Below, piece after piece: positions 18,393 to 50,955 of a stretch of DNA of 64,000 nucleotides. The notes beneath the pieces were generated by a model. That model made no database searches and was not told the DNA's origin. It saw only the letters and a list, made by a program, of their open reading frames with translations. The DNA is from Desulfurivibrio alkaliphilus AHT 2 (GTDB taxonomy: Bacteria > Desulfobacterota > Desulfobulbia > Desulfobulbales > Desulfurivibrionaceae), in contig NC_014216.1 of the NCBI RefSeq assembly GCF_000092205.1, positions 2,609,742 to 2,673,741 of the forward strand. The letters run 5' to 3'. Every line of letters begins with the position of its first letter. Positions within the stretch are counted from its first letter, which is position 1. The translations under genes were made by a program, and so were the position numbers.

Positions 18393-18437
18393 CCTGCCGC
18401 GGGTGCGGGGTCGGTTATATTTTTTTTGAGGATCCTT

Positions 18438-20510: not shown

Positions 20511-20516
20511 TCAGCT

Positions 20517-22007: not shown

Positions 22008-23222
22008 ATGGGCGCCTTTGAGTATTCCGCGGTGGATGCCGCCGGCAAGACCCGCAAGGGGGTGCTGGAAGGGGATACGCCGCGCCAGGTGCGCCAGCAG
22101 TTGCGGGAAAAGGGGTTGATGCCGCTGGCGGTCAACCCGGTGGCCGAAGGGCGGGGCAAGTCGTCCGGCCGCCGGCTGGGTGGCGGCCGGATTCAGGCCT
22201 CGGACCTGGCGGTGGTTACCCGCCAGCTGGCTACTTTGGTCCGCTCCGGCATCGTGCTGGAGGAGGCCCTGGGGGCGGTGGCCGAGCAGGCGGAAAAGCC
22301 TCGCTTGAAAAGCGTGCTGATGGCGGTGCGCTCCCGCATCCTGGAAGGTTATGCCGCCGACCGGGCCCTGGGCGAGTTCCCCCGGGTCTTCCCCGAGCTT
22401 TACCGGGCCACCCTGGCCGCCGGCGAACAGGCCGGCCACCTGGATGTGGTCCTGGAACGGCTGGCCGATTACACCGAGGCCCGCCAGCAGTTGCAGCAGA
22501 AGGTCTTTCTCGCCCTGCTGTACCCGGTGCTGCTCACGGTGGTGGCCTTTGCCGTGATCTCCGCCCTGCTGGTTTATGTGGTGCCCCAGGTGGTGGAAGT
22601 CTTTGCCCATATCGACCAGACTTTGCCGGCGCTCACCGTCGGCCTGATCGCGGTCAGCGATTTTCTCCAGGCCCATGGCCTGGTTCTGCTGCTGCTGGCG
22701 GTTGGCGGCTTTTTTCTGGCCAGGGTGCTGCTGAAAAGGGAGCAGATTCGCCGCCGGGTGCATCGCCACCTGCTTTACCTGCCGCTGCTGGGCAAGTTCA
22801 TCCGTACCCTGGATGCGGCCCGGTTTGCCCGTTCCTTCAGTATCATGATCGCCAGCGGGGTGCCGGTGCTGGAGGGGCTTAAAATCTCATCCCGGGTGGT
22901 GGCCAACCTGACCCTGCGGGAGGCCCTGGAGCGGGTCCGGACCAAGGTTCGGGAAGGGGCCAGCATCAGCAAGGCCATGCAGGCCGAAGGCTACTTTCCG
23001 CCCCTGACCATCCACCTGATCGCCAGCGGTGAGGCCAGCTCCAACCTGGAGCAGATGCTGGACCGGGCCGCCGCCACCCAGGAAAGGGAGACGGAAACGG
23101 TTATTTCGGCCACCATGGGGCTGTTTGAGCCGCTGATGATCGTGGTCATGGGCGGCATCATCCTGATCATCGTGCTGGCCATCCTGCTGCCCATCTTCGA
23201 GCTGAACCAGTTGGTCCAATGA
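22008..23222 (+). CDS. gspF: Type II secretion inner-membrane platform protein GspF
   Basis: Polytopic platform protein with two T2SF domains (about residues 70-195 and 272-395), each followed by hydrophobic segments (VFLALLYPVLLTVVAFAVISALLVYVVPQV and PLMIVVMGGIILIIVLAILLPIFELNQLV). The N-terminus MGAFEYSAVDAAGKTRKGVLEGDTPRQVRQQLREKGL is characteristic of GspF. It starts directly after the gspE stop and overlaps gspI by four bases. Confidence 0.96.
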   Translation: MGAFEYSAVDAAGKTRKGVLEGDTPRQVRQQLREKGLMPLAVNPVAEGRGKSSGRRLGGGRIQASDLAVVTRQLATLVRSGIVLEEALGAVAEQAEKPRLKSVLMAVRSRILEGYAADRALGEFPRVFPELYRATLAAGEQAGHLDVVLERLADYTEARQQLQQKVFLALLYPVLLTVVAFAVISALLVYVVPQVVEVFAHIDQTLPALTVGLIAVSDFLQAHGLVLLLLAVGGFFLARVLLKREQIRRRVHRHLLYLPLLGKFIRTLDAARFARSFSIMIASGVPVLEGLKISSRVVANLTLREALERVRTKVREGASISKAMQAEGYFPPLTIHLIASGEASSNLEQMLDRAAATQERETETVISATMGLFEPLMIVVMGGIILIIVLAILLPIFELNQLVQ

Positions 23223-23590
23223 TTCCCGGCGAAAAAGGTTTCACCCTGATCGAGATCGTTATTGCCCTGCTGGTGTTGGGGCTGGTGGCGGTAAGCGCCG
23301 TGCAGGCGGCGGGTAATGCGGTTAATAACCTGTTCCACCTCAAAGAGCAGACCTTTGCCCACTGGGTGGCCATGAACCGGGCCGCCGAGATCACCCTCGC
23401 CCCGGCCGGCTGGGAACGGGACCCCTCCAGCGGCAGCGCCATGCTGGCGGATATCGAGTGGTCTTGGGAAATCGAAATCAAGGACACCCCGGAGCCGGAG
23501 ATGCGCGAGGTGGCCATCCGGGTCTGGCCGGCCGGCGGTGAAGAGGGGGAGGCGGCGGCGGTGCTCACCGTCTTCCGCAGAGTCCAATGA
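23219..23590 (+). CDS. gspI: Minor pseudopilin GspI
   Basis: A short prepilin with leader MIPGEKG|FTLIEIVIALLVLGLVAVSA (cleavage after Gly7, Glu5 in the mature part). The mature domain contains WVAMNRAAEITLA, a GspI signature, and WSWEIEIKDTPEPEMREVAIRVW. 123 residues matches GspI. It overlaps gspF and gspJ by four bases each. It belongs to the tip complex with GspJ and GspK. Confidence 0.88.
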   Translation: MIPGEKGFTLIEIVIALLVLGLVAVSAVQAAGNAVNNLFHLKEQTFAHWVAMNRAAEITLAPAGWERDPSSGSAMLADIEWSWEIEIKDTPEPEMREVAIRVWPAGGEEGEAAAVLTVFRRVQ

Positions 23591-24258
23591 GGGCAGCCGG
23601 CGGTTTTACCCTGCTGGAGCTGCTGGTGGCGCTGGCGCTCTTTTCGGTGCTCTCCATGATGACCTTCATCAGCATCCAGACCATGCTCGACAGCCGCCAG
23701 CAGACCCGCCAGGAAGCGGAACGGCTGGCGGCGGTGCAGATGGCCTTCGCCCGCCTGGAGTTGGATCTGCAGCAGGCCCGGGGGCGGGGGATCCGGGACG
23801 AGTACGGCAATCGCCGCCCCGCCGTCTATTACGGTCTCAACCCCGATGAGGGTTTGTCCCTGACCCGGGGCGGCCGGGCGATCCAGGTGCCGGGTCGCTC
23901 CGGCACCTCCCTGCAGCGGCTGCGTTACCGCCTGGAGGATGGCGAGTTGCTGAGGGAAACCTGGCCGGTGCTGGACCGGGGACCGCGGCTGGAGCCCTTC
24001 CGCCAGCGGCTGCTGGAGGGAGTGGAGGCGCTGGAAATCCGCTTTCTCGATGACCAGGGCGATTGGCACCCCCGCTGGCCCCCGGACAGCGCGTCGCCGG
24101 CAGAGCAGTGGCCGCCGGAGGGCAGGGGAGAGGGAGAGGAGGCGCCGCCGGCAAGCTTCCCGCCGGAGTTGCTGCCCATCGGGGTGGAGATCTGGCTGGA
24201 GCTTACCGACTGGGGCCGCATCCGGCGCTTAATCCCCATCAGTCGGGGTGAAGGCTGA
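23587..24258 (+). CDS. gspJ: Minor pseudopilin GspJ
   Basis: A prepilin with leader MRAAGG|FTLLELLVALALFSVLSMM and Glu5. The domain has RLAAVQMAFARLELDLQQARGR (the GspJ helix) and ends with VEALEIRFLDDQGDW ... LPIGVEIWLELTDWGRIRRL. It is 223 residues, with a Pro/Gly/Glu-rich loop at about 160-190. It sits between gspI and gspK as in most T2SS operons. Confidence 0.88.
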   Translation: MRAAGGFTLLELLVALALFSVLSMMTFISIQTMLDSRQQTRQEAERLAAVQMAFARLELDLQQARGRGIRDEYGNRRPAVYYGLNPDEGLSLTRGGRAIQVPGRSGTSLQRLRYRLEDGELLRETWPVLDRGPRLEPFRQRLLEGVEALEIRFLDDQGDWHPRWPPDSASPAEQWPPEGRGEGEEAPPASFPPELLPIGVEIWLELTDWGRIRRLIPISRGEG

Positions 24259-25205
24259 TGATGGCAAGCAGAGGAAAAAATGGTGCTGCCGGATGTTTTC
24301 ACAACCAGCAAGGAGCAGCGCTGATCAGCGCCCTGCTGGCCGCCGCCCTGGTGGTTACCGTGGCCGCGGCGATGATCTTCGACCAGCAGTTGGACATCCG
24401 CCGCACCGGCAATATCCTCCACGGCGATCAGGCTTATCTGTACGCCCGGGGGGTGGAGTCCTGGGCCGGGCTGCTGCTGGGCCGGGCGGCCGAGGGCGAG
24501 GAGTATGAATACCTGGGCCACACCCTGCCGCCCATCCCGGTGGAAGGGGGGCACCTCAGCGTGCGGGTGGACGACCTGCAGGGGCTGTTCAACGTCAACA
24601 ACCTGGTGCTGGGCAGCGAAGGCGGGCAGGAACAGCAGCGGCTGGTGTTTCGCCGGCTTTTGCGTCACTGCGGCCTGGCCGAGGAACTGGAACAGGCGGT
24701 GTCCGACTGGCTGGATGCCGACCAGGAACCCCGTTTCCCCGGCGGGGCCGAAGACGGGGAGTACCTGCGGCGTGATCCGCCCTACCGCACGGCGGACCGC
24801 CCCCTGACCGACGCCGATGAACTGGCGCTGGTGTATGGTTTCGGGCAGGATGGTTACGAGGAGTGCTTGAAACCTTTGCTCACCGCCCTGCCCGAGGTCA
24901 GCGCGATCAACATCAACACCGCCCCGGCCCCGGTGCTGGCCGCACTGGCCGATGAACTGGATCTGCGGCGGGCCGAACAACTGGTGGAGGATCGGCCGGA
25001 AGCGGGCTACACCATGGCGGAATTTCTTGAGCATCCGTCCCTGGCCGGGACCGGTCTGGGCTCGGAAGCGGGCGTTTTGCTCACTGTCCAAGGCCGGTAC
25101 TTTATGGTACAATCCGAGGCGGTTATCGGCCAGAGCCGGGTGGTGCTGCACAGCCTGCTGCAACGCGATGGAGAAGCAGTGCGGGTGCTGCAACGAAGCA
25201 GATAG
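24258..25205 (+). CDS. gspK: Minor pseudopilin GspK
   Basis: The largest pseudopilin, capping the pseudopilus. The leader ends QGAALISALLAAALVVTVAAAM, which lacks the usual Glu5, as is characteristic of GspK. The mature part has VRVDDLQGLFNVNNLV, VSDWLDADQEP and INTAPAPVLAALADELDLRRAEQLVEDRPEAGY, a helix-hairpin-helix-like segment. At 315 residues it fits the family. The start may be ATG 24258 or the next ATG. Confidence 0.9.
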   Translation: MMASRGKNGAAGCFHNQQGAALISALLAAALVVTVAAAMIFDQQLDIRRTGNILHGDQAYLYARGVESWAGLLLGRAAEGEEYEYLGHTLPPIPVEGGHLSVRVDDLQGLFNVNNLVLGSEGGQEQQRLVFRRLLRHCGLAEELEQAVSDWLDADQEPRFPGGAEDGEYLRRDPPYRTADRPLTDADELALVYGFGQDGYEECLKPLLTALPEVSAININTAPAPVLAALADELDLRRAEQLVEDRPEAGYTMAEFLEHPSLAGTGLGSEAGVLLTVQGRYFMVQSEAVIGQSRVVLHSLLQRDGEAVRVLQRSR

Positions 25206-25220
25206 GTCAGGTTTGAGTTT

Positions 25221-26456
25221 ATGAAAAAAATTATTGTCAGGTTGGATGAGCGCGCACCGGCCGAGTGTGTTTGGCGGAAGTTCGAGGCCGACGGAGCCGA
25301 GGTGGCCGGCTGGGGCAGCCTGGCCGACCTGGCGGCCCTGGCGGCCGGCTATCGCCTGTGGGTGCTGATCCCCGGCACCGAGGTGCTGCTCACCCGGGTC
25401 AACCTGCCGCCGGGCAATCGCAAGCAGTTGCTGGCGGCCATTCCCTACGCCCTGGAAGAATTTCTCGCCGATGAGGTGGAAGATCAGCATTTCGCGGTGG
25501 GCCGGCCCGATGAAAACGGCGCCCTGGCAGTGGCGGTGATCGCCCGCGAGCGTTTGGATTACTGGCTTGAGCTTTGCCGGCAACATGGCCTGGCGCCCGC
25601 CGGGATGGTGCCGGAAATGCTGGCGGTTCCCCTGGCCGGCCCCGATGCCGCCGGCCGGGAGCCGGGAGCGGCCCCCCGGCCCTCGCTGTTGCTCACCGCC
25701 GCCGGTGCGGCCCTGGTGCGCACCGGTCCCCAGGACGGCTTCGTGCTGGACCGCGACAGCCTGGCCATTATGCCCGGCATGCCCGGGATCGGCAATGAAG
25801 CGAAGCTGGAGTTTTACCACGAGGAAGAGGCCCCGGAGCTGCCGGAAGAACTGGCCGTGCTGCTGGCGGGCAGCCATCGGGTGGGCGATGTTTTTGCCCT
25901 GCTGGCGGAAACTCTTAAGGAAAAAGAGGCTCTCAACCTGCTGCAGGGCGATTACCGCCCCCAGGCCCACTGGGAAAAGCACTGGCGCCGCTGGCGGCTG
26001 CCCGGGGTGCTGGTGCTGGTTTTGCTGCTCTTTTATGCCGGCCTGGGTCTGCTGGAAAACCAGCGCCTGAGCCGTTACCACGAGCAGTTGCACGACGAAA
26101 TAATCGAGGTCTACCGCACCACCTTCCCCGGCGCTCAGCGCATTGTCAACCCGCGGGCCCAGATGGAGCACCAGCTCCAGACCTTGCGGGGTGCTGGGGG
26201 AGAGAGCAGTGCCCGCGGTTTTCTGCCCCTGCTGGCGGACAGCGGTCCGGTGTTGAGCGGGGCCGCCGGCATGCAGTTGCGGGGCCTGCGTTACCGGGCC
26301 GGGGAACTCGACCTGGAGCTTACCATCAGCGACCTGCAGGCCTTGGATGAACTTAAGGCAGCGCTGGAAGAGCGCGGCCTGGAGGTTGATATCCGCACCG
26401 CCACCACCCGCGATGAGCGGGTGCTGGCCCGCCTGCAGGTAAGGGAGCCGCGATGA
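25221..26456 (+). CDS. gspL: Type II secretion protein GspL
   Basis: Inner-membrane platform protein that binds GspE on the cytosolic side. The N-terminal 240 residues have an actin-like fold signature (LWVLIPGTEVLLTRVNLPPGNRKQLLAAIPYALEEFLADEVEDQHFA). A single membrane helix lies at about 258-276 (LPGVLVLVLLLFYAGLGLL), and the periplasmic ferredoxin-like domain follows (GMQLRGLRYRAGELDLELTISDLQALDELKAALEERGLEVDI). It overlaps gspM by four bases. Confidence 0.92.
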   Translation: MKKIIVRLDERAPAECVWRKFEADGAEVAGWGSLADLAALAAGYRLWVLIPGTEVLLTRVNLPPGNRKQLLAAIPYALEEFLADEVEDQHFAVGRPDENGALAVAVIARERLDYWLELCRQHGLAPAGMVPEMLAVPLAGPDAAGREPGAAPRPSLLLTAAGAALVRTGPQDGFVLDRDSLAIMPGMPGIGNEAKLEFYHEEEAPELPEELAVLLAGSHRVGDVFALLAETLKEKEALNLLQGDYRPQAHWEKHWRRWRLPGVLVLVLLLFYAGLGLLENQRLSRYHEQLHDEIIEVYRTTFPGAQRIVNPRAQMEHQLQTLRGAGGESSARGFLPLLADSGPVLSGAAGMQLRGLRYRAGELDLELTISDLQALDELKAALEERGLEVDIRTATTRDERVLARLQVREPR

Positions 26457-26992
26457 TCGACTTGAAAGAAATCCGCGCCGGCCTGGAGGCGCGTCTGGAA
26501 GGACTGCTGGCCGATGTGCCGCCCCGGCAGCGGCCTTTGCTGTTCATCGGCCTGGGGTTGCTGGTGCCGCTGCTGGTTTGGCTGTTGCTGCTGGCGCCGC
26601 TTGGTTCTTCCCGCGATTCCCTGCAGCGGGACATCGGCGCCCGGGAGCAGGAGCTGGCCTGGATGCGGGAGGCGGCCCAGGAGGTACAGCGTTACGCCAT
26701 CACCGCCGGCAATGGCGCCCGCCCCGGTGGCTCACCGCTGGCGGCCATCGACAGCAGCGCCCGGGAATTTGGCCTGGGGCGCGCCATGCAGCGGGTGGAG
26801 CCGGGCGACGGCGGCGAGGTCCGGGTCTGGCTGGAAGACGCGGTATTCGATGATCTGCTGCGCTGGCTGGACCGCCTGGGCCGGGGGCACGGCATCGAGG
26901 CGGTGGAGGTGGTGGTGGAACCGGCCCGGGGTGGCCGGGCCGCCCGGGTCAACGCCCGCCTGACTTTAATCCGTGATGCAGAGGCAAGCTGA
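26453..26992 (+). CDS. gspM: Type II secretion protein GspM
   Basis: Bitopic platform protein pairing with GspL. It has a cytosolic start, a membrane helix (LLFIGLGLLVPLLVWLLLLAPL, about residues 23-44), a short coiled coil, then a ferredoxin-like periplasmic domain (VRVWLEDAVFDDLLRWLDRLGRGHGIEAVEVVVEPA). 179 residues is normal for GspM. Confidence 0.9.
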   Translation: MIDLKEIRAGLEARLEGLLADVPPRQRPLLFIGLGLLVPLLVWLLLLAPLGSSRDSLQRDIGAREQELAWMREAAQEVQRYAITAGNGARPGGSPLAAIDSSAREFGLGRAMQRVEPGDGGEVRVWLEDAVFDDLLRWLDRLGRGHGIEAVEVVVEPARGGRAARVNARLTLIRDAEAS

Positions 26993-26996
26993 ATCG

Positions 26997-27755
26997 ATGT
27001 TTACCTGGAAAAAACAACTGGCCGCAGGGCTTGCTTTTTTCATCTTTTTTCTGGTCTATTACTTCCCGGCCCAACTGGCCTGGCCGCTGTTGCAAAAATC
27101 CGGGGTGGACCTGGTGGAACTGCACGGCATCAGCGGCAGTTGGCACCACGGCAGCGCCGCCGCCGGGCGGGTGCTGGCTACCCCGGTGCGGGATATTTCC
27201 TGGCGCTTCAAGCCTTTGCCCTGGGCCCCCGCCCGGGGTGAGATCGAACTGATTTACGGCCACGAGGGGCGCCTGGCGGCGGGCTTCAGCAGCGGTTATA
27301 AAGGGCCCCAGTTTGGCCGGGCGGAGTTGACCGCGGTGCGGGCAGAATTGCCTTTGGTGACCTTTGCCGAGCAACTGCGCCGTTTCGGCCTGGCGGTGGA
27401 CGGCCTGCTGGCCGCCGACCTGAAACGCCTGGTGCTGGAAGACGGGCGGCCGGTGGCGGCCGAAGGGGAGGTTTTTCTGCTCGACTTTCAGGCCCTGCAG
27501 CCGGTGCCCCTGGTGCTGGGAGACTTTACCGGCACCTTCGAGTCCGCCGGCGATGAGCTGCTGCTTAATCTCCGGGACCAGGGCGGCCCGCTGGCACTTG
27601 ACGGCGTGGTGCGTTTCACCGGCGAGGGTTACCGGTTCAACGCCGGCCTGACCCCCCGGGACCCCGACGACCGGGAGCTGACCCGGGTGCTGGCCTTCCT
27701 GGGCTCGCCGGGCCGCGACGGGGCTATCCCCCTGCGCTTTTCCGGCCAATGGTAG
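26997..27755 (+). CDS. gspN: Type II secretion protein GspN
   Basis: Optional type II component of unsettled role. The likely start is ATG 26997; GTG 26973 and ATG 26976 in frame would overlap gspM. It has an N-terminal membrane anchor (LAAGLAFFIFFLVYYFPAQLAWPLL) and repeated beta-rich strands (WHHGSAAAGRVLATPVRDISWRFKPLPWAPARGEIELIY) as in GspN/AsmA-like proteins. About 253 residues is typical. A small GGGTGC/GCACCC hairpin follows its stop. Confidence 0.85.
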   Translation: MFTWKKQLAAGLAFFIFFLVYYFPAQLAWPLLQKSGVDLVELHGISGSWHHGSAAAGRVLATPVRDISWRFKPLPWAPARGEIELIYGHEGRLAAGFSSGYKGPQFGRAELTAVRAELPLVTFAEQLRRFGLAVDGLLAADLKRLVLEDGRPVAAEGEVFLLDFQALQPVPLVLGDFTGTFESAGDELLLNLRDQGGPLALDGVVRFTGEGYRFNAGLTPRDPDDRELTRVLAFLGSPGRDGAIPLRFSGQW

Positions 27756-27809
27756 TAAGGGTGCCCGGAGCACCCCATCATAACTAAATAACTGCACGAG
27801 GAACAGGCA

Positions 27810-28256
27810 ATGTGGCGGTCGAAAAATAATTTGCAGCACCAGGGCGGTTTTACCCTGATTGAGATCATGGTGGTGGTGGTTATTCTGGGGATTTTGGCGG
27901 CGGTGGTGGTGCCGCGGATCATGGATCGGCCGGACCAGGCCCGGTTGACCAAGGCCGCCCAGGATATCCGGGCCCTGGAGAGCGCCCTGCGCCTTTACCG
28001 GCTGGATAACTTCTTTTATCCCACCACCGAGCAGGGCCTGGACGCCCTGGTGGAACGGCCCACCACCCAACCTGAACCCCGGCGCTGGCGCGAAGGCGGC
28101 TACATCGACCGCCTGCCCCGCGACCCCTGGGGCGGCGAGTATCAGTACCTCAATCCCGGGGTACACGGCGAGATCGACATCTTCTCTTACGGGGCCGACG
28201 GCCGCCCCGGCGGCGAGGGCATCAACGCCGAGATCGGTAACTGGAATATAGAGTAA
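27810..28256 (+). CDS. gspG: Major pseudopilin GspG
   Basis: Main subunit of the type II pseudopilus. Leader MWRSKNNLQHQGG precedes FTLIEIMVVVVILGILAAVVVPRIM with Glu5. Strongly conserved blocks follow: YRLDNFFYPTTEQGLDALV, IDRLPRDPWGGEYQYLNPG and the calcium-site end IDIFSYGADGRPGGEGINAEIGNW. 148 residues is standard. It lies unusually late in the operon, after gspN, 54 bases downstream. Confidence 0.96.
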   Translation: MWRSKNNLQHQGGFTLIEIMVVVVILGILAAVVVPRIMDRPDQARLTKAAQDIRALESALRLYRLDNFFYPTTEQGLDALVERPTTQPEPRRWREGGYIDRLPRDPWGGEYQYLNPGVHGEIDIFSYGADGRPGGEGINAEIGNWNIE

Positions 28257-28285
28257 CCGGTTCAAACTGCAGGTTTATTTGGTTA

Positions 28286-28837
28286 TTGGCTTTGGTCAAC
28301 GGTAACAACAATAGCGGCTTCACGCTTATCGAGGTGATTGTTGTCCTGCTGATCATTGGTCTGCTGGTGGGGGTGGTGGGCCTTTCTTTGGGCAGCCGCG
28401 ACCGTCCGCTGGAGACCGAGGCCGAGCGGCTGGCGGCCCTGCTGCGGCTGGCCGGCCAGGAGACCCTGCTCACCTCCACGCCCACCGCCGTGGGTTTTCA
28501 TGCCGAAGGCTACCGTTTTTACCGCTACGATCTTGCCGGCGGCGACTGGCACCTGCTCGCCGCCGGTGCCCTGCGCCCCCGCCAGCTCGACCACGACTTC
28601 ATCCTGGAGCTGCGCTTGCTGGAAGAGGATGACACCCCGGTTAATTTGCCCTACCTGGATTATGAAGACGACCAGCGGCTGCTGCCGCGGATCTATTTTT
28701 TCCCCGGGGGCGAGCTTACCCCCTTTGCCGTCACCCTGGCCGCCGACACCGTGGCCCGCCGTTACACGGTGCAGGGTAACCTGCAGGGGGAGATCGGCGT
28801 GGAAATCGAGGAGCTACGCCGGCCCGGGGGGTGGTAA
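28286..28837 (+). CDS. gspH: Minor pseudopilin GspH
   Basis: Prepilin with leader ending NNNSG and FTLIEVIVVLLIIGLLVGVVGLSLG. The mature part has the GspH signature helix TEAERLAALLRLAGQETLLTSTPTAVGFHAEGYRFYRYD. Starts are TTG 28286 or TTG 28292; no ATG fits. 183 residues. It is the last gene of the secretion operon, 134 bases before the first cytochrome gene. Confidence 0.88.
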   Translation: MALVNGNNNSGFTLIEVIVVLLIIGLLVGVVGLSLGSRDRPLETEAERLAALLRLAGQETLLTSTPTAVGFHAEGYRFYRYDLAGGDWHLLAAGALRPRQLDHDFILELRLLEEDDTPVNLPYLDYEDDQRLLPRIYFFPGGELTPFAVTLAADTVARRYTVQGNLQGEIGVEIEELRRPGGW

Positions 28838-28970: not shown

Positions 28971-30020
28971 ATGTTCAACATTCGTTCTTTTGTTACCGCC
29001 CTGCTGGTGGCGGGTTCCCTGGCCGCCGGCGGCTTTCTGCTGGCCACCACCACCGGCACCGCCGCCATGCCGTCGTTGGCTCCCATTCCCGATGGTGACG
29101 CGATTTCCTCACACGCCCCCTACCTCACCGGCCAGTGCGGCATGTGCCACGACTCAGGCCAGCCCGACGGCAAAAGCCCGGGCAAGGTTCCCGATGATGT
29201 CGGGGCCCTGTGCGCCACCTGCCATTTCGACATGGACCAGGAGATCAAGGGCAGCTCGGTGGTGCACGCCCCGGCCATGATGAGCTGTACCGCCTGCCAC
29301 AACCCCCACAACTCGCCGGCGCCCAGCCTGCTGGTGGTGGAACCCAAAAACCTCTGCCTAGGCTGCCATGGTGAGATCCAGCAGACCATCTCCGAGGCGG
29401 CGGTGCAGCATGACGCGGTGATCGACGAAGTAGCCTGCCTCAACTGCCACAACCCGCATGCCTCGGACATCCAGCACCTGCTCACCAAGCTCCCATTCGA
29501 TCTCTGCATTTCCTGCCACAGCCATGATGAGCCGGGGGCCGACGGCCGAGTGCGCACCAACTTCGCCACCCTGCTGGAAGAAAACCCCTACCATCATGGG
29601 CCGGTGGAGGGCAAGGACTGCAGCGCCTGCCACCTAACCCACGGCAGCGAACACCACAGCCTGCTGGTGGACGCCTTCCCCGAGCGGTTTTACGCCCCCT
29701 ACGAGCGCGACAACTACGCCCTGTGCTTCCGCTGCCACAACGAAGAGAACATGCTGGACCCGGAAACCACCACCACCACTCGCTTCCGTGATGGCTCCCG
29801 CAACCTCCATTACGTTCATGTCAATAAGCCCGACCGGGGCCGCACCTGCCGCGCCTGCCACGAGGTTCATGCCTCGGAGAACCCGCACCAGATCCGCGAC
29901 GCCGTCCCATTCGGGCCGCGCAACTGGATGCTGCCGGTTAACTTCACCAAAACCGACACCGGTGGCTCCTGCGCCCGCACCTGCCATCAGACCAAGAGCT
30001 ACGATTACACCGCCGAGTAA
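28971..30020 (+). CDS. Multihaem c-type cytochrome with paired CXXCH motifs (9 plus one CX3CH)
   Basis: Exported electron carrier. A signal peptide ends at about residue 33 (LAAGGFLLATTTGTAAM). Nine CXXCH haem sites follow (CGMCH, CATCH, CTACH, CLGCH, CLNCH, CISCH, CSACH, CFRCH, CRACH), mostly in the doubled HNPH/HxxH pattern of Paired_CXXCH proteins. A terminal CARTCH has three residues between cysteines. RBS GAGAGGAG lies ahead of the ATG. It is probably periplasmic or exported. It is the first gene of the cytochrome cluster. Close relatives of known function are not identifiable by eye. Confidence 0.93.
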   Translation: MFNIRSFVTALLVAGSLAAGGFLLATTTGTAAMPSLAPIPDGDAISSHAPYLTGQCGMCHDSGQPDGKSPGKVPDDVGALCATCHFDMDQEIKGSSVVHAPAMMSCTACHNPHNSPAPSLLVVEPKNLCLGCHGEIQQTISEAAVQHDAVIDEVACLNCHNPHASDIQHLLTKLPFDLCISCHSHDEPGADGRVRTNFATLLEENPYHHGPVEGKDCSACHLTHGSEHHSLLVDAFPERFYAPYERDNYALCFRCHNEENMLDPETTTTTRFRDGSRNLHYVHVNKPDRGRTCRACHEVHASENPHQIRDAVPFGPRNWMLPVNFTKTDTGGSCARTCHQTKSYDYTAE

Positions 30021-30059
30021 GCGCTAAACCATTGCAGGGGAATTCCCCGGGAGGTCGGC

Positions 30060-30899
30060 ATGCAACCTAAACACTGGCTGGGATCGCTGGCCATCGCCAC
30101 GCTGCTGGTGGTGCCGCAACTGGTCTGGTCCGAGCCCGGCGCCGCCTTTTATAACCTGGAAGTCGGCAAAGACGTGTTGGAAAACGTTACCCTGCCCACC
30201 ATCGACGGCGGCGAGGCCACTCTGTTGGACCATGAAATGGGGGCCAATGTTTTTGTCTTCTTCCGCCCCGGTCCTGAACCCTCCCGCCGGGGGCTGGCCG
30301 ATATGGCCCGCTGCGGGGAAGATTTGGCCGACTACCCGGTACGCTGGACGGCCCTGGTTTCCGACCGCTACCCCGCCGAGGAGGTCCAGGCGGTGGTGGA
30401 TAACGCCAACTTTCGGGGTCCGGTGCTGGTGGACCAGGGCAACACCCTTTACGGCCGCTACGGCGTTCGCCTTCATCCGGTGGTGGGGGTAACCGACGGG
30501 GAAGGGCGGCTCACCGCCTACCAGCCCTACACCCAGATTAACTTCTGCGCCCGGGTCAAGGCCAAGGTGCTGCACACCCTGGGCGAGATCGACGACGAAG
30601 AGTTGCAGCAGCGCTTAAGCCCCCGCTCGGTGGACCCCCGGGCCGACAGTGCGGTGGCCCAGCGCAATCTGCGCATGGGCCAGCGCTTCCTGCAAATGGG
30701 CAATTACGAGCAGGCCCTGGCCACCGCCCGCCGCAGCCTGGAACTGGATCCGGACCTGGCCGCCGCCCACGGCATGGCCGCCCTCTCCCTGGCCCACCAG
30801 GATCAGTGTGACGAGGCCGCCGCCCATATCGACCGGGCCCTGGCCCTGGAGCCCGCCCAGGCCGAAGCCGAAGCCGCCCGGGAACAGTGCGGGCAGTAA
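30060..30899 (+). CDS. Exported thioredoxin-fold protein with TPR repeats
   Basis: It has a signal peptide (LAIATLLVVPQLVWS) and then a redoxin-like domain (about residues 30-180): VTLPTIDGGEATLLDH, NVFVFFRPGPEPSRRGLADMARC, GPVLVDQGNTLYGRYGVRLHPVVGVTDGEGRL. The usual thioredoxin CXXC is missing; the first Cys position holds a proline-rich RPGPEPS, so it is probably not a disulfide reductase. The C-terminus has about two TPR units (LRMGQRFLQMGNYEQALATARRSLELDPD). It may scaffold or chaperone cytochrome assembly. That is inference from placement. Confidence 0.75.
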   Translation: MQPKHWLGSLAIATLLVVPQLVWSEPGAAFYNLEVGKDVLENVTLPTIDGGEATLLDHEMGANVFVFFRPGPEPSRRGLADMARCGEDLADYPVRWTALVSDRYPAEEVQAVVDNANFRGPVLVDQGNTLYGRYGVRLHPVVGVTDGEGRLTAYQPYTQINFCARVKAKVLHTLGEIDDEELQQRLSPRSVDPRADSAVAQRNLRMGQRFLQMGNYEQALATARRSLELDPDLAAAHGMAALSLAHQDQCDEAAAHIDRALALEPAQAEAEAAREQCGQ

Positions 30900-31005
30900 G
30901 GGGCGGCTTGGCAGGGCCAGGGCCGCTGGGCGCGGCGCGCCCCGCCCGAGGCCATTGGCGCTAGGCAACAGGGCGCCAGGCAACATATTTTAAAGGTGGC
31001 AAACC

Positions 31006-31539
31006 ATGAGCAAATATCGCTTTTTTTCCTTTCTTGCTTTCCTGCTGGCCCTGGGGGTTGGCGGCGCCCTGGTGGCGATGGCCGGCAAGCCCGGGGCGGT
31101 AACCGGCGGCCCGGTCTTCACCGCCGAGCTGCAACCCGACACCATGGGCCTGCGGCCGGTGGAGAGCGAGGCCAGCGGTCGGCTGACCATGGAGCTAAGC
31201 GCCGATGGTGCGACCCTGGTTTATCAGCTGGAAGTGGTCGCCCTGGAAGACGCCTTTATGTCGCACCTGCAGTACGGCGGCCCGGAAGACCGATACGGCC
31301 CCATCGTGGTCTGGCTCTTTCCGGAAGACGGCAAGCGCCGGGAGGTGGTGGAAGGGCGTTTCGACGGAGTGCTGGCCCAAGGTGAAATCCGGGCCCAAGA
31401 CCTGCAGGGTCCCCTGGCCGGCCAGGAACTGGCCGCCCTGCTGCAAGCCATCGAGGAAGGCATGATCTTTGCCGATGTCCACACCCGCCGCCATGTCCCC
31501 GGCGAGTTGCGCGGCCATGTGCGCCCCGTACAACCTTAG
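31006..31539 (+). CDS. CHRD-domain exported protein
   Basis: It has a signal peptide (FFSFLAFLLALGVGGALVAMA). FTAELQPDTMGLRPVESEASGRLTMELSADGATLVYQLEVVALED and the C-terminal FADVHTRRHVPGELRGHV match the CHRD (chordin-like) domain, which in bacteria occurs in secreted or surface proteins of poorly known function. The usual AHIH is replaced by SHLQYGGPEDRYGPIVVWLF. 177 residues. It sits between the redoxin/TPR gene and the beta-barrel gene. Confidence 0.75.
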   Translation: MSKYRFFSFLAFLLALGVGGALVAMAGKPGAVTGGPVFTAELQPDTMGLRPVESEASGRLTMELSADGATLVYQLEVVALEDAFMSHLQYGGPEDRYGPIVVWLFPEDGKRREVVEGRFDGVLAQGEIRAQDLQGPLAGQELAALLQAIEEGMIFADVHTRRHVPGELRGHVRPVQP

Positions 31540-31573
31540 CAGTCGACTTTATTCACTCAGCGATAAGATATTC

Positions 31574-32947
31574 ATGGTTTCAGCAATCTGGTGGGAAGAA
31601 AAACAGGAGGCAGTTGGTACTTTGCCCCCGGCAGGAAAAATAGCTGTTCCTGGTTTACTGGTGCTGATTTTCGCGCTGCTCCTGGCCGCCCCGGTCCTGG
31701 CCCAGCCGCTGCCCATGGCGGCCACCGGCGTCGGCGAGGATGGATTCTCCCCTGTTTATCTGGAAGAATCTACCCCTGGGGTGGAGATCGGCGGCCGGGC
31801 CTCCACCGAGATCCAGTACCGCAAGGAATCCCGCCGGTCCGATTCGGCCCCGCTGTTCCAGTACTTGCAACTTAACCTGCGCCATTTCGACGAAGAGGTG
31901 GAAGAAAAATACGCCGTTCACGCTTACGGCCGGCTGGGCACCGACCTGCGCAACGAGGATGACTGGGCCGACAGCCGCCTCTATTACGCTTACTACCAAA
32001 AGCAGGATCTGTTCGACAAAATCGACTTCCGCCTGGGTCGCCAGTTTATCTCGGTAACCGCCGGGGCCTCGCTGCTTGATGGCCTGACCCTGGATTACCG
32101 CCCCGGCGGCCCCCTTTCCCCCTTCACCTTCACGGTCTTCGGCGGCGGCGATGTGGCCTTCTACACCAGCTATTCCGCCAAGGATACCCTGATGGGCGGC
32201 GAAATAAGGGGCCGCTTCCGCGATGAAACCCTGGTGGCCGGCCTTTCTTACGTGCAGCGGCGGGAGGATTCCGACAAGGCCACCGAGCTGATCGGGGCCG
32301 ATTTTGACTACGGCTTCCGGAAAATGGTCAACCTCTACGGCGAGATCCAGTACGACTACCTGGGCGACCGGGTCAGCTACGGGTTGATCGGCACCAATTA
32401 CCATCGCAGCGACCGCTGGGGGCTGCGCACCGAATATCTCTATTCGCTGCCGGTCTTTTCCGCCACCTCCATCTACTCGGTCTTTGCGGTCAGCAAGTAC
32501 CAGGAGGCCATGGCGGAGCTGAATTATTACCACGGCGGCGGGCGGCGCAGCTTTATCCGCTACAGCCGTGAGATTTACGAGGACTTCCGCGATGCCGACG
32601 TCCTGGAGGCGGGCCTGGAGCAAATTCGCCTTAACCGCTTCTCCGGCTATTTAAGCGGCGTCTGGCGCTACGCCGGCGACGGCGGCCAGGACATGCACGG
32701 GGTGCGGGCCCGGCTGGCCTGGCTCTTTACCCCTCATGTGCAGGGCGGCATCGGCACCGAAATGGACGTGCTGCAACGCCGCCTGGATGAATTTGAAGAC
32801 GACACCTTAAGCTCGCGCTTCTGGGCCGATCTCACCGCCCGCTTAACCCGCGATCTAGATCTCCAGGCCCGCCTGGAACGGGCCCAGAGCAGCGGCTACT
32901 GGGGCTATCACAACCGCGCCACCTTGCGGTTGAACCTGACATTCTGA
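31574..32947 (+). CDS. Outer-membrane beta-barrel protein, possible cytochrome porin
   Basis: After an N-terminal hydrophobic segment (IAVPGLLVLIFALLLAAPVLAQ), the protein is a run of amphipathic strands with short turns (VEIGGRASTEIQYRKES, FQYLQLNLRHFDEEVEEKYAVHAYGRLGTDLRNEDDW, YYAYYQKQDLFDKIDFRLGRQFI), ending in RATLRLNLTF. The terminal Phe is typical of outer-membrane barrels. A TTG at 31622, eleven bases after AGGAGG, gives a cleaner signal peptide than the ATG used here. It has no CXXC and does not match MtrB. Among multihaem cytochrome genes it is the best candidate for the sheath of an electron conduit. Confidence 0.8.
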   Translation: MVSAIWWEEKQEAVGTLPPAGKIAVPGLLVLIFALLLAAPVLAQPLPMAATGVGEDGFSPVYLEESTPGVEIGGRASTEIQYRKESRRSDSAPLFQYLQLNLRHFDEEVEEKYAVHAYGRLGTDLRNEDDWADSRLYYAYYQKQDLFDKIDFRLGRQFISVTAGASLLDGLTLDYRPGGPLSPFTFTVFGGGDVAFYTSYSAKDTLMGGEIRGRFRDETLVAGLSYVQRREDSDKATELIGADFDYGFRKMVNLYGEIQYDYLGDRVSYGLIGTNYHRSDRWGLRTEYLYSLPVFSATSIYSVFAVSKYQEAMAELNYYHGGGRRSFIRYSREIYEDFRDADVLEAGLEQIRLNRFSGYLSGVWRYAGDGGQDMHGVRARLAWLFTPHVQGGIGTEMDVLQRRLDEFEDDTLSSRFWADLTARLTRDLDLQARLERAQSSGYWGYHNRATLRLNLTF

Positions 32948-33031
32948 TAAGATTTTGGGCGGGGCTGCGGTGGTTGGCCCCGCTGCCGAAAAGACCGGAC
33001 AAGAGGCCGGGAACTAGCCTGGAAACGAGTA

Positions 33032-33955
33032 ATGATGCGCAACTTGGTGAAAATATTTTTGATCGGCGGTTGTCTGCTGCTGGCCGGTGGCCTGCTTTCG
33101 CTGGCCGGCGGCGGGGCCAGCCCGGCGGCGGCCCAGCAGGAGTACCAGTTTACTTTCGACCACGACCAGCACCGCTTTCTGGTTTTTCCCGGTTCGCCCT
33201 GTATTACCTGCCATTTGCCGGACACCCCCACCATCACCCCGGAGCGGCGGTCCTGCCTGCAGTGCCATGACCAGGAGTTCACCGAGCTGGTCCACTTTCC
33301 CGGCATGGTCAACACCCACGGCCCGCTGTGGGGCTTCAACCACGGGCCCTTTGCCAAAAACAAGAGCCGGCAGTTTGACTGCGCCGGCTGCCACCAGCAG
33401 AACTACTGCCTTAACTGCCACGTGCAGGGTCCGGCCCAGGAGATGGGCAAGTTCGGCGGCTCGTTGCTCAATGTGCACCGCAGCGATTTCCGGGTCAGCC
33501 ACCCCATCGCCGCCCGCACCAACCCCCGGCTCTGCGCCAGTTGCCACGAGCCCGCCTCCTGCAACGAGTGCCACAGCGATTTCCGCCGACGGGGCGACAT
33601 CCGGGCCGGCAGCCCGTCGCACCGGCGTACCTTCAATCTCGGCCTGGACGGCGATATCGCCGCCATCCACGAGCAGTTCCGGGGTGAAGGCAGCCTGCAG
33701 CGCTGCGACGACTGCCACCGCTCCGGCACCGTGACCCCCACCATGCACGCCTGGGGCCGGGACCACGCCCGGGAGGCCCGCCGCAACCTGCAGACCTGCC
33801 AGGCCTGCCACCCCAGCGGCGATACCTGTATTCAGTGCCACAGCGCCAAATCCGGCCCCGGCGGCATCAACCCCCACGGTTCCGACTGGTCCTCCGCCCG
33901 GGCCAAACGCCTGGAGCGGGCCTCGGGCGGGGCCACCTGCATCCGTTGCCACTGA
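33032..33955 (+). CDS. Decahaem c-type cytochrome
   Basis: It has a signal peptide (LVKIFLIGGCLLLAGGLLSLAGGG...AAA) and ten CXXCH sites: CITCH, CLQCH, CAGCH, CLNCH, CASCH, CNECH, CDDCH, CQACH, CIQCH and CIRCH. The last haem motif is the very C-terminus (ATCIRCH then stop). Extra histidines (FDHDQHRF, NTHGPLWGFNHGPF, NVHRSDFRVSH) can supply distal ligands. It is 307 residues, like many periplasmic decahaems. It follows the barrel gene and is the likely periplasmic partner in a barrel-cytochrome complex (inference). Confidence 0.93.
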   Translation: MMRNLVKIFLIGGCLLLAGGLLSLAGGGASPAAAQQEYQFTFDHDQHRFLVFPGSPCITCHLPDTPTITPERRSCLQCHDQEFTELVHFPGMVNTHGPLWGFNHGPFAKNKSRQFDCAGCHQQNYCLNCHVQGPAQEMGKFGGSLLNVHRSDFRVSHPIAARTNPRLCASCHEPASCNECHSDFRRRGDIRAGSPSHRRTFNLGLDGDIAAIHEQFRGEGSLQRCDDCHRSGTVTPTMHAWGRDHAREARRNLQTCQACHPSGDTCIQCHSAKSGPGGINPHGSDWSSARAKRLERASGGATCIRCH

Positions 33956-34029
33956 CCTTAGCCACGAGCAGCATGAACCTTAACCTTGCCGGCCTTGCCG
34001 ACCGATAATTAATCACCGACTGAATTGAA

Positions 34030-35148
34030 ATGAACCGGACCAATTGCCACCATAACTCCCAGCCGCCCGCGCCCCCCCGCCGGGTCTGGCTGCTGCCGGC
34101 GGCCTGGCTGCTGGCCCTGGCCCTCCTGGCCGGCCAGTTCGCCTGCAGCAGCGACACCGACCCGGCGGCGGCCAAGATCCTGGAGCCGGCCTACGGCACC
34201 GATGCCGAGGGCGCCCGTTACGTGGGCAGCGACCGCTGCCTGGCCTGCCATGAAGAGGTAAGACCGGTGGAGGCGGCCACCTATCTGGCCTCCCGCCACG
34301 CCACCCCCGGCACCGTCGGCGCCGACGCCGACCCGGCCTGCCTGGCCTGCCACGACCCCATCGGCGACGGGATCATGCTGGCCCCCTGGTTTGCCGACCA
34401 CGACCACCCCCCGGCCGGCATGACCGCGGTGGGCTGCGAGAGCTGCCACGGCGCCGGCACCCTGCACTGGCTGAACTTCCCCGCCCACCCCAACCCGACC
34501 CCCGATTACCAGGCCTGCGGCCAGTGCCACCGGGCCCTGCCGCCCGGCCATGCGGCCCTCGCCGGGCAGGGGAGTTTTTCCGGGAAGTATGCCAATGATA
34601 TTCTGGCCAAATACGAGCAGAGTGCGCATGGGCGATGGTCGTATGGCGATGGGCCGTGCCTGCTTTGTCATAGTGACGAGGGCTTTCGGGGATATTTTGA
34701 AAAAACCGCCGGTATGGACCGCCAGGAATTGTATTCATTTATGGCCGAAGTGCCTTATCTACCAGAGACCTCGGTGATGCAATGTCGGACCTGTCACGAT
34801 GGCCACACCGGAGAGTTGCGAGGGGGGCCTACGGTGGTGGAGGAAGATGGGGTGGAGGTGGTTAAGTACTCTCGCCTCTTCAACCTTTGTACTGCTTGTC
34901 ATCAGGTGTTTCTCGAGGCTGACTACGATCCGAAATCCGGTGCTTATGATTATTTTTTGGATACCGGCAGGATACCGTTCCATGGAGAACTTGACGGAGT
35001 GGGACTACCGGTGGCTGACAGTTTAGTAATTTGGGATACCCATTTTGCCACCAGGGACGGCGCGATCACGGGATGGCCGATTGACCCAGCCTCTGAGCAG
35101 GCCTGCCTGGGTTGCCATGATCCTCATTTGGCCAGTAAGTTCTGGTAG
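34030..35148 (+). CDS. Octahaem c-type cytochrome lipoprotein
   Basis: A signal sequence with lipobox (WLLALALLAGQFAC|SS) suggests anchoring to the outer membrane. Eight CXXCH sites follow: CLACH twice, CESCH, CGQCH, CLLCH, CRTCH, CTACH, CLGCH. VGSDRCLACHEEVRPVEAATYLASRH and VGCESCHGAG resemble the cytochrome c-554/multihaem nitrite reductase-like family, but no lysine-ligated active haem motif (CXXCK) is seen. Codon use changes abruptly near 34560, from very GC-rich to AT-richer codons, midway through the gene. It lies between two other cytochrome genes. Confidence 0.9.
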   Translation: MNRTNCHHNSQPPAPPRRVWLLPAAWLLALALLAGQFACSSDTDPAAAKILEPAYGTDAEGARYVGSDRCLACHEEVRPVEAATYLASRHATPGTVGADADPACLACHDPIGDGIMLAPWFADHDHPPAGMTAVGCESCHGAGTLHWLNFPAHPNPTPDYQACGQCHRALPPGHAALAGQGSFSGKYANDILAKYEQSAHGRWSYGDGPCLLCHSDEGFRGYFEKTAGMDRQELYSFMAEVPYLPETSVMQCRTCHDGHTGELRGGPTVVEEDGVEVVKYSRLFNLCTACHQVFLEADYDPKSGAYDYFLDTGRIPFHGELDGVGLPVADSLVIWDTHFATRDGAITGWPIDPASEQACLGCHDPHLASKFW

Positions 35149-35518
35149 AAAAGTTGCCCAGCGTTTTGGGGTGGTTGTGAATGGCAGTTCAGAAAGCTAA
35201 AATTTCCGCAAATTATCTCTTGCAGAGTCGTTAAGCCGCGGCTACACTACTGTCCAGTGTATATGCTGTGCGCCCCGTCTGTCTGGAGGGCGGAGAAACG
35301 TTGGCAACCGAGCTTATGTCGGGCTTGGTCAGGGTGAGAATTTGAAGGGAGTTGCCAGAACGGTTTTTGCCGTTTCGGCTTTTGGTGTTGACCCCGGGCT
35401 TTATTTGGTTGAGCTGCGGCAATGCCATGAAGGTTAACAAGGGTGGAAGGGTTGCGCGCAAAGAGCGCCCAACCTCTGTCCGCGAAAACAACCATAGTGT
35501 TAGGGAGGAGGTTTGCAG
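35149..35518. other. 370-base leader region before the OmcA/MtrC-like gene
   Basis: I see no gene here. The GC content is lower than around it. It holds an inverted repeat TACACT/AGTGTA near 35245-35265 and a GGTTG-GCGC/GCGC-CAACC hairpin just upstream of the strong ribosome site GGGAGGAGG (35502-35510). A long untranslated leader with its own promoter is likely, but no convincing -35/-10 pair or known riboswitch consensus is visible. Confidence 0.5.
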
Positions 35519-37939
35519 ATGAAAAAGAAATGGTACTTAGGCAGATTGCTTGCTATCGGCCTGCTGGGAGGGTCCTTGGCCCTGTTCGGCTGTAGTGGCG
35601 ATGATGGCAAAAAAGGCGCCGCCGGCGCCGACGGCGCCGATGGAATTGACGGCGTAGACGGCATTCCGGGTCCCCCGGGCCCCGCGGGTGAGTCTCTGTC
35701 CATTAAGGCCTCGGATGCCCACCAGGCCATGCGGGCGGCGAGTGTATGGGGTTCGGAAATCGACGAAGTTACGGTTAACAATGGTGAAATTACCATAACT
35801 TTTACCATTGATGATGCTCGTTACGATGCGGCCCCGGAGGCGGTAAATGCCGAAATCACCATTGCCAAATGGGTAGAGAGTGAGGGTTCCTGGATCAACT
35901 TGCTGCAGCGAAGTGTAGGTGGTGGCGATGACGCCCGGGTAATCCGTGGCGGCAATCTCCGGGTGGACAATCCGCTGGCCAAAATCCCGGGGGTTGAAGT
36001 TGATGGTGGCCGGCAGTTTACTTACACCTACGCCAGTGACAGCGACGGTCGGTTTGGTGTCTCCGCCGGGACCCCGCTCGACTTCACCAACGCTCCATTG
36101 TGGCGCGGTGCGGACGACCAGGATCCTGCTTACTACTGCGATGATGATGCTGATTGTGCAACCTACGTGCAGGGCCTGATCGACAAGATCAATGCCGACG
36201 GTGCCTGGGAAGCCAATGGCACTTATCGGGTGGCGGTAACCGGACGTGATCGGGATGCCGACTATGTTAGGTTTGCCGCCGTGGCCGATGTTACCCTGGC
36301 TGGTGGTAGCGTGGATGATGTTGGCGCGCCGGCACCCACCAACCAGATTGCGCAAAGTTCCTGTACCACCTGCCATGGTGAGCGCCTGGCGTTCCCCCGC
36401 AACAAGGTACATGGTGAGCAACGGCCGAACGTTAACGTCTGCTTCAACTGCCACAACAGCTACACTTTTGACGCTGACGCCTCTGTGGCCGCGGCCGACG
36501 GTTGGGTCAACATCAGCATGCTCAACATGATTCACAAGATCCACAGTGGGATCGAAGGCTACACCGTGGATGGCTACGAGTATGAAGATGTTTCCTTCCC
36601 CGACTGGACTTTTGCCCGGCCCGGCAACACTAAAAACTGTGTGGCCTGCCACGTGGAAGATGAAGGCTACGGTGGTGGCTGGAACAGCCTGGCCAAGCGT
36701 AACCAGTCCTGCCTCACCTGCCACGGCGAGGGCGGCTATGATGACGTGGTTTTCGGTTTGCACGGCGAAAACCTCCCCTCTGGCAATTGCCTCGAGTGTC
36801 ATAGCACCGCCGGTGTCCAGTACGCTGACCGGTGGCATGGCATCAGCGAGCGCCAGGATGAACTGCTGGCCCAGCAGGAAGATTATTTCTTTAAGTTGAT
36901 CAGCGTTGAAAATGCTGTGGCTGGCAGTGATGCCACGGTCACCTGGCAACTGGTCGACGCCGAAGGTGAACCTTACGAGTTGGGCACTGACATCACCATT
37001 GGTGGGGTAAGGGTACAGCTTGGCTGGGGTCTGGACGACGGTCTGGCCGACGACTGGATCAACGATCCTGCTGATCGTGGTCGCCCGGTTCGTGAGGGTG
37101 ACCACGCCATTCAGGCTGATGACGTAACGGTTGTTACCACCATGGAGACTCTTCCTGGCGTAGCAACTGCCGGCTTGCGCGGCTTTGTGGCCCTGCAGAG
37201 CAACATCACCGTTGACGGGGTCAACCTGTTCCCCACCGCCGTGGTTCAGCCCTTTGTACTTACGGCAGCCTTGGTTGAAGAAGATGACTTTGCCGACTTG
37301 CGTCGCAACACCGTTAATGCCAGCACCGTTGGCGGTCGCGGTGGTAGCTGCCTGAGCTGTCACGGTACCATTGTCTATCATGGCGGTGCCGGCTGGAGTG
37401 CCAATAACAACATCCAGGCCTGTGTCACCTGCCACAGCGCCGGCTCTGTAACCGTCGGCACCAACCGTAGCTGGGTAGAGCCTGGTGACTCCTATGACAT
37501 GATGTACCTCATGCACATGATTCACTCCTCGGAAGATAATCTGAATACCGAGTCGCCGTTGTTGTACCCCAACGACATGCCTGGCCGTTGCCACGCCTGC
37601 CATACCGGTAGCGACAACGATGCCCTTGGCAACCCCATCAACGTGAATGTGTACATGGAAGGTGCAGAGACCAACTGCAACCTCTGTCACGCTGGTGCGG
37701 TCAACCCGGGTCGCCTTGGGGTAGTTTCCGACTGGAATGAAGATTATGATGGGCCTGGCAACGGTGGTGCCAATACCCCCATGGCATCTCTCTGCTTCTC
37801 CTGTCATCAGAACTGGGATGACTACAATGCAGCCCGGTTCCACATGACCAATCTCGGCGGCGACCTGATTGGTGGTGTGGACATTGACGCTGAGAGCATG
37901 GAGGGTTGTGCTACCTGCCACGGTACATTGCGCCCGTAG
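35519..37939 (+). CDS. OmcA/MtrC-family multihaem cytochrome lipoprotein (11 CXXCH)
   Basis: Predicted cell-surface terminal reductase or electron conduit. The ATG at 35519 follows GGGAGGAGG. The signal sequence ends in lipobox LALFGC|SGDDGK, then comes a collagen-like Gly-X-Y stretch (GAAGADGADGIDGVDGIPGP). Then come a beta-domain and eleven CXXCH motifs in two clusters: CTTCH, CFNCH, CVACH, CLTCH, CLECH, then CLSCH, CVTCH, CHACH, CNLCH, CFSCH, CATCH. The family norm is ten haems in two pentahaem sets; here the second cluster has six. About 806 residues. It is followed by a strong terminator. Confidence 0.92.
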   Translation: MKKKWYLGRLLAIGLLGGSLALFGCSGDDGKKGAAGADGADGIDGVDGIPGPPGPAGESLSIKASDAHQAMRAASVWGSEIDEVTVNNGEITITFTIDDARYDAAPEAVNAEITIAKWVESEGSWINLLQRSVGGGDDARVIRGGNLRVDNPLAKIPGVEVDGGRQFTYTYASDSDGRFGVSAGTPLDFTNAPLWRGADDQDPAYYCDDDADCATYVQGLIDKINADGAWEANGTYRVAVTGRDRDADYVRFAAVADVTLAGGSVDDVGAPAPTNQIAQSSCTTCHGERLAFPRNKVHGEQRPNVNVCFNCHNSYTFDADASVAAADGWVNISMLNMIHKIHSGIEGYTVDGYEYEDVSFPDWTFARPGNTKNCVACHVEDEGYGGGWNSLAKRNQSCLTCHGEGGYDDVVFGLHGENLPSGNCLECHSTAGVQYADRWHGISERQDELLAQQEDYFFKLISVENAVAGSDATVTWQLVDAEGEPYELGTDITIGGVRVQLGWGLDDGLADDWINDPADRGRPVREGDHAIQADDVTVVTTMETLPGVATAGLRGFVALQSNITVDGVNLFPTAVVQPFVLTAALVEEDDFADLRRNTVNASTVGGRGGSCLSCHGTIVYHGGAGWSANNNIQACVTCHSAGSVTVGTNRSWVEPGDSYDMMYLMHMIHSSEDNLNTESPLLYPNDMPGRCHACHTGSDNDALGNPINVNVYMEGAETNCNLCHAGAVNPGRLGVVSDWNEDYDGPGNGGANTPMASLCFSCHQNWDDYNAARFHMTNLGGDLIGGVDIDAESMEGCATCHGTLRP

Positions 37940-48992: not shown

Positions 48993-49026
48993 CTTGATCC
49001 CCTCAAATTTGTGGCATTCTCTTGTC

Positions 49027-49743
49027 TTAGTCCTCGTCCACCCGGCAGCCGGTCTCCAGCATGCCGTAGGCGCGCCATCTTACCTGCAGCAGCTTTTCGG
49101 TGTTCTGCGGTCCCTGGTGGTGCACGTAGATGTCGTAGACCAGCGACGAGCTGTAGCCGCTGCCCGCCGCCTTGCCCACCCCGACATAGCCGGCGGCCAT
49201 CTGCTGGGCGCCGCCGAAGGCCTCCACGGTTTGCCCGCCCAGCCGCACGCTGGTGCGCCGGTCCGGGCCGGGGGTCTGCCAGGGGTAGTTGTTTAAAATG
49301 AAGTCGGCTTCTCCCGCCGGGTCGTCGGCAAAGGCCAGGATATCGGCGGGGAAGTCCGGCGGGTCCTGGGTCCAGAAGTTCAGGGTGTCGCTGAATACCC
49401 GGATGGGGCCGATCTGGCGATCTTCGTTGCCTTCGAAACCGGCGCAGATGATGTTTTCTTCCAGCAGCAGGGTGGCCATTTCCGCCCCGCCGTCGGTGTG
49501 GAAGAAGGTCTCGGTGTGGGATTTTTCCACCCCGGCGATTTGCAGCTCCAGGTTGGTGGCGGTGGTGGCGGCAATGCCGATGAGCACCAGCACCAGCATG
49601 ATCAGCAGGGCGCCCACCAGCACGAAGCCGCTCTGCTGCCGTGGCGGCCGTTGGCCCGCCCCGCCGCTGTTTGCCCGGTCATGCCGGGTCGGGGCCGCTG
49701 CTTGTGGTGGGTAAAAGATTGATTTTTGCATGGCGGCCTTCAT
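49027..49743 (-). CDS. pilX: PilX-like type IV pilus assembly protein
   Basis: It has an N-terminal hydrophobic helix SGFVLVGALLIMLVLVLIGIAATTATNLELQIAGVEKSHTETFFHTDGGAEMA, the PilX_N signature (an atypical prepilin lacking FTLIE). The remaining domain is ordinary alpha/beta with few cysteines. 238 residues. It sits between pilV and pilY1 and is translated just after pilV (one-base overlap), consistent with a minor pilin that primes pilus assembly. Confidence 0.85.
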   Translation of the reverse strand: MKAAMQKSIFYPPQAAAPTRHDRANSGGAGQRPPRQQSGFVLVGALLIMLVLVLIGIAATTATNLELQIAGVEKSHTETFFHTDGGAEMATLLLEENIICAGFEGNEDRQIGPIRVFSDTLNFWTQDPPDFPADILAFADDPAGEADFILNNYPWQTPGPDRRTSVRLGGQTVEAFGGAQQMAAGYVGVGKAAGSGYSSSLVYDIYVHHQGPQNTEKLLQVRWRAYGMLETGCRVDED

Positions 49744-50911: not shown

Positions 50912-50955
50912 GGTCTTTCCGTCGGCTTATCGCTCACTTTATTTACACTTCGTGC

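Follow-up and report, generated by a model that had tools for sequence, protein, structure and literature searches.

The pcc locus of Desulfurivibrio alkaliphilus AHT 2 as a probable group II porin-cytochrome conduit with a nearly invariant barrel loop

Introduction

The described systems closest to the locus presented here are the OmbB-OmaB-OmcB conduit of Geobacter sulfurreducens (Pcc group I), MtrCAB of Shewanella, and ExtABCD and ExtEFG of G. sulfurreducens (PMC6148476). Pcc porins are reported to have 18-22 strands, and 28 strands are predicted for Mtr barrels. For the soda-lake bacterium Desulfurivibrio alkaliphilus, Shi et al. (2014, PMC4245776) reported a single pcc cluster in the genome and assigned it to group II, together with those of Desulfuromonas acetoxidans and Desulfurispirillum indicum. 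DaAHT2_2270 was used as the representative D. alkaliphilus pcc porin in 2017 (PMC5539420), and a homologue of ExtI has been reported in the organism (PMC5877670); a paper on Desulfobacterota conduits (PMC12133095) does not mention the genus Desulfurivibrio. In a 2025 study (PMC12545173), D. alkaliphilus is reported to use ferrihydrite for growth on sulfide; 13 of its 46 multihaem genes, one OmcA homologue among them, go up, and MHCs of a putative PCC cluster are mentioned in a figure legend.

Results

Gene content and identity of the locus

We analysed a stretch of 64,000 nucleotides of the D. alkaliphilus AHT 2 genome (NC_014216.1, positions 2,609,742 to 2,673,741; hereafter the window). Seven genes, all on the plus strand and at the positions given in a preliminary description made from the sequence alone, occupy positions 28971-37939, directly downstream of type II secretion genes.

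17331..28837, plus strand: type II secretion genes gspC, D, E, F, I-N, G, H, assigned by reading the sequence
28971..30020, plus strand: MtrA/DmsE-like periplasmic cytochrome, 349 aa, nine CXXCH and one CX3CH (domain and profile matches)
30060..30899, plus strand: thioredoxin-fold/TPR protein without CXXC (domain search)
31006..31539, plus strand: CHRD-domain protein (PF07452, E 1.3e-18, above the cut-off)
31574..32947, plus strand (start maybe TTG 31622): outer-membrane barrel of Pcc type with 22 predicted strands and without cysteine; DaAHT2_2270 by gene count
32432..32491, plus strand: nearly invariant barrel loop EYLYSLPVFSATSIYSVFAV between strands 13 and 14 (alignment and model)
33032..33955, plus strand: decahaem periplasmic cytochrome, its last CXXCH forming the C-terminus; most likely the in-barrel cytochrome
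34030..35148, plus strand: 8-haem outer-membrane lipoprotein cytochrome (signal peptide, CXXCH count)
35519..37939, plus strand: 11-haem lipoprotein cytochrome of the OmcA/MtrC family, containing a short collagen-like stretch (TIGR03507)

The preliminary description had read this cluster as four multihaem cytochromes with 9-10, 10, 8 and 11 haem motifs, two of them lipoproteins, around a barrel without CXXC, with about 38 haem sites in 9 kb, and our counts agree with it. Nine CXXCH motifs in the 28971 product, ten in the 33032 product, eight in the 34030 product and 11 in the 35519 product add up to 38; the tenth haem-type site of the 28971 cytochrome is the CX3CH, which is kept in all four orthologues, and the barrel has no cysteine at all. 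The same 9 kb hold 38 of the 39 plus-strand haem-type patterns of the window. Since a control with the reversed pattern, run genome-wide, gave 49 and 42 matches per 3.1 Mb, or about 0.15 per 9 kb and strand, the haem-motif density of the cluster is far above chance. Both the 8-haem and the 11-haem protein carry lipoprotein-type signal peptides at the N-terminus; the lipobox of the former is weak here and canonical in its orthologues. The 11-haem product matches TIGR03507 (OmcA/MtrC family) with 221.8 bits against a curated cut-off of 209.3. As for the thioredoxin-fold/TPR and CHRD neighbours also named in that description, the CHRD and TPR domains pass their cut-offs, and the thioredoxin-like part stands on a weak AhpC/TSA match (21 bits, cut-off 26).

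The gene order had been taken as new, which was not supported. The dsrMKJOP genes are DaAHT2_2298-2302, and genes fitting dsrMKJOP, including a three-haem dsrJ, start just past the right end of the window. Counting from these, dsrM lies 30 gene calls after the barrel, two doubtful ORFs (32 and 63 residues) among the calls, so that the barrel comes out as DaAHT2_2268 to 2270. No other barrel was found within two genes of this one, and no multihaem cluster other than this one was seen at genome 2.46-2.73 Mb except dsrJ. The window barrel is thus almost certainly DaAHT2_2270, the published pcc porin (PMC5539420), with an uncertainty of about two in the gene count. In the DA numbering of PMC12545173, a gene count puts the cluster at about DA_2305-DA_2311. 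Because the count lands on this gene and a single pcc cluster is reported for the genome, the locus is already published as the D. alkaliphilus pcc cluster of PMC4245776. Its core there is identical (barrel, periplasmic cytochrome and outer-membrane cytochrome); the available text does not mention the upstream MtrA-like, Trx-TPR and CHRD genes or the type II secretion neighbours.

Proposed electron route

We read the locus, at a probability of about 0.88, as a group II porin-cytochrome (Pcc) conduit in which a 22-strand barrel surrounds the decahaem cytochrome and electrons pass outward to surface lipoproteins. Periplasmic cytochromes, possibly including the 28971 MtrA-like one, would deliver electrons to the 33032 decahaem, which would cross the outer membrane sheathed by the barrel. 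From there, perhaps through its C-terminal haem, electrons would reach the surface lipoproteins, the one with 8 haems and the OmcA-like one with 11, and these would hand them to an acceptor outside the cell, for instance iron(III) oxide. The analysis itself establishes gene content, homology, the conserved order, the predicted number of strands and the conserved candidate haem ligands; from these we infer complex formation, the direction of electron flow, the acceptor and the type II export of the surface cytochromes.

A conduit of this kind is reversible in principle, and D. alkaliphilus cycles sulfur and stands close to the cable bacteria, so the locus might instead run inward and take up electrons from an extracellular donor, e.g. 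mineral sulfide or a partner cell. We consider this improbable, given that the extracellular physiology described in PMC12545173 is ferrihydrite reduction with sulfide or formate.

The genome contains three strong OmcA-like matches. Besides the gene in the window, two OmcA/MtrC-like genes are located at genome 478640-482774 (L022, L023, L066); DA_402, the cytochrome with the strongest induction in PMC12545173, lies at a distance of about 10 kb. Another multihaem cluster, which includes a 20-haem protein, is found at genome 2446792-2459417 (L038, L039), and a similar 20-haem gene sits directly beside pcc genes at L070:10313.

Conserved gene order and the in-barrel cytochrome

A profile search with the barrel recovered 46 related loci from Desulfuromonas, Desulfuromusa, Pelovirga, Geothermobacter, Desulfobulbales and a Denitrovibrio. 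In all 40 loci with enough downstream sequence, the gene directly after the barrel is a decahaem homologue, and in 34 of 36 a third, larger multihaem gene comes next. The MtrA-like cytochrome of the 28971 type is near the barrel in only four of the 46 loci, those of Desulfurivibrio and of the lineages nearest to it in the tree. Because the decahaem is directly adjacent in 40 of 40 loci and the MtrA-like cytochrome is present in only four, we singled out the 33032 decahaem as the partner of the barrel, and it is most likely the cytochrome inside it.

That the 28971 product should occupy the barrel in its place is a thought suggested by its ten haem sites and its resemblance to MtrA (E 5e-12 with the MtrA chain of 6r2q), although its match to the DmsE family, at 76 bits, is below the cut-off of 192. 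Its rarity beside the barrel, set against the constant position of the decahaem, and the presence of its relatives elsewhere in clusters without this barrel type make this arrangement improbable.

Among 37 aligned decahaems, all ten CXXCH motifs and exactly ten other histidines are invariant, so that there are enough candidate ligands for bis-histidine ligation of every haem. In 36 of the 37, the last CXXCH is the literal C-terminus. An AlphaFold2 model of the decahaem calculated without haems was poor (pLDDT 53).

The barrel and its family

The start of the barrel gene is uncertain: the ATG at 31574 has no visible ribosome site, and the TTG at 31622 stands behind an AGGAGG and gives a normal signal peptide. 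AlphaFold2 modelled the product as a barrel of 22 strands (mean pLDDT 84) without a plug domain, which fits the 18-22 strands of Pcc porins and falls short of the 26-28 of Mtr-type barrels. In the VIA structural alignment the model superposes on TonB-dependent transporters of 22 strands across about 350 residues (Z about 20, rmsd about 4-5), and the barrel should therefore be about equally wide; the barrels of these transporters hold a plug domain. From the strand number and an assumed shear of 24, we estimate a pore width of about 40 angstrom backbone to backbone, compared with 47 for 26 strands and a shear of 28. No MtrB chain was among the VIA matches listed, to which we give no weight either way.

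The barrel had no match above any cut-off in the curated-family search, no relative in a sequence search of the PDB, only generic barrels in a viral structure library and no close paralogue in its own genome. A CBM_26 match below the cut-off was taken as chance. PF11854 (MtrB/PioB) had no match anywhere in the genome at E values up to 1, which bears out the earlier judgement that the barrel is not MtrB-like.

The barrel profile also finds, over their full length and at E about 1e-65, OmbB-type barrels, recognised as such by the OmbB-OmaB-OmcB gene layout. In their clusters a barrel gene is accompanied by an 8-haem gene and a 9- to 12-haem gene, and the 8-haem neighbours match the decahaem profile. 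In the phylogenetic tree the window barrel groups with Desulfuromonas-type barrels (support 92/84, under the mark set by the tool), apart from the OmbB-type set (98/96). A distant barrel family lies far off on a separate long branch, and the tool warns of long branches. In members of this family (L054:13787-16424, L057-L062, L088, L101, L148) the next genes encode a 5-haem lipoprotein and a cytochrome with 7 to 18 haems, and some members lie divergently beside pcc genes.

Features of sequence, layout and model used to recognise Pcc systems are found together at this locus: a suitable number of barrel strands, homology to OmbB-type barrels, an adjacent periplasmic cytochrome with 5-14 haems and, as in most Pcc clusters, an outer-membrane multihaem cytochrome. 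By sequence and layout the conduit is a member of Pcc, and it would work like Mtr. With PF11854 absent, the barrel homologous to the OmbB type and the barrel-decahaem-multihaem order conserved, the porin-cytochrome logic without Mtr kinship that the preliminary description had put forward is well supported.

A nearly invariant loop in the barrel

The loop EYLYSLPVFSATSIYSVFAV is nearly invariant in the alignment of related barrels. Most of its core (S, P, F, T-S-I-Y-S, F-A) is still present in OmbB-type barrels, which are 27-31% identical, and barrels of octahaem- and decahaem-type Pcc systems have the motif in common. In the model of the empty, cytochrome-free barrel the loop is poorly ordered; it would be extracellular if the barrel termini are periplasmic as usual. 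Because the surface lipoproteins vary, we suggest that the loop contacts the in-barrel cytochrome.

A solute porin too narrow for a cytochrome and offering no interface to one had been named as the case against a conduit, and the 22 modelled strands, the lack of a plug and the nearly invariant loop point the other way. That the barrel is an ordinary solute porin merely lying beside cytochrome genes is very improbable: OprD-type substrate-specific porins are among the top Foldseek matches, as they are for many barrels, but the order with the decahaem is fixed across distant genera, and both homology and the loop motif tie the barrel to OmbB-type barrels of other conduit clusters.

Neighbouring modules

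At least two type II secretion genes flank seven of the 46 related loci, from several lineages (L067, L068, L069, L076, L100, L107, L111), and none of 30 control stretches, a contrast that is indicative only, as most controls come from this one genome with its own type II secretion region not covered. Such neighbours are also seen at L058 and L059, which belong to the distant barrel family. In Shewanella, type II secretion puts MtrC on the cell surface, which makes a role in exporting the lipoproteins reasonable here, and by this analogy the neighbouring system is a possible export route for the lipoprotein cytochromes.

A similar pair of genes, for an MtrA/DmsE-like cytochrome and, next after it, a Trx-TPR protein lacking CXXC, is found again in Desulfobulbales clusters that do not contain this barrel (L133-L137, L139). 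The two genes therefore give the impression of a module of their own, placed next to the conduit. The Pcc core might, in Desulfurivibrio and its closest relatives, have been extended into an export-and-wiring unit, in which the MtrA-like and Trx-TPR proteins would feed the barrel, the type II system would be dedicated to the surface cytochromes and the loop would be a family-wide docking site; we put this forward as a speculative proposal that is more likely wrong than right.

Further along the window, at 44274-52736, a large PilY1-like gene precedes several genes for pilin-like proteins; read from the sequence, this is a type IV pilus minor-pilin cluster.

Discussion

The conduit that we prefer for this locus, a Pcc barrel around the decahaem, resembles OmbB-OmaB-OmcB in its homologous barrel and periplasmic cytochrome, its gene order and its loop motif. 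It differs in that the barrels are just 27-31% identical and that the periplasmic cytochrome has ten haems here and eight in OmbB-OmaB-OmcB. With MtrCAB it would share the working principle, and its 11-haem protein belongs to the OmcA/MtrC family and its 28971 cytochrome resembles MtrA. Unlike MtrCAB, however, it comes from a genome in which MtrB/PioB is absent, its barrel has 22 predicted strands rather than 26-28, and its in-barrel cytochrome most likely belongs to a different family. ExtABCD and ExtEFG also combine a barrel with multihaem lipoproteins. An ExtBC-like layout, formed by the distant barrel family and a 5-haem lipoprotein, is seen beside some related loci, but the barrels of that family are only 21-29% identical to the window barrel and sit on their separate long branch.

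To the known cluster, our analysis adds the loop motif, the ten invariant histidines as candidate haem ligands, the module structure and the recurrent secretion-gene neighbours. The loop motif and the fixed histidines offer concrete sites for probing how cytochromes are seated in Pcc pores generally. For D. alkaliphilus, an organism that couples the oxidation of sulfide to the reduction of iron(III) oxide (PMC12545173), the cluster offers a plausible way for electrons to leave through the outer membrane.
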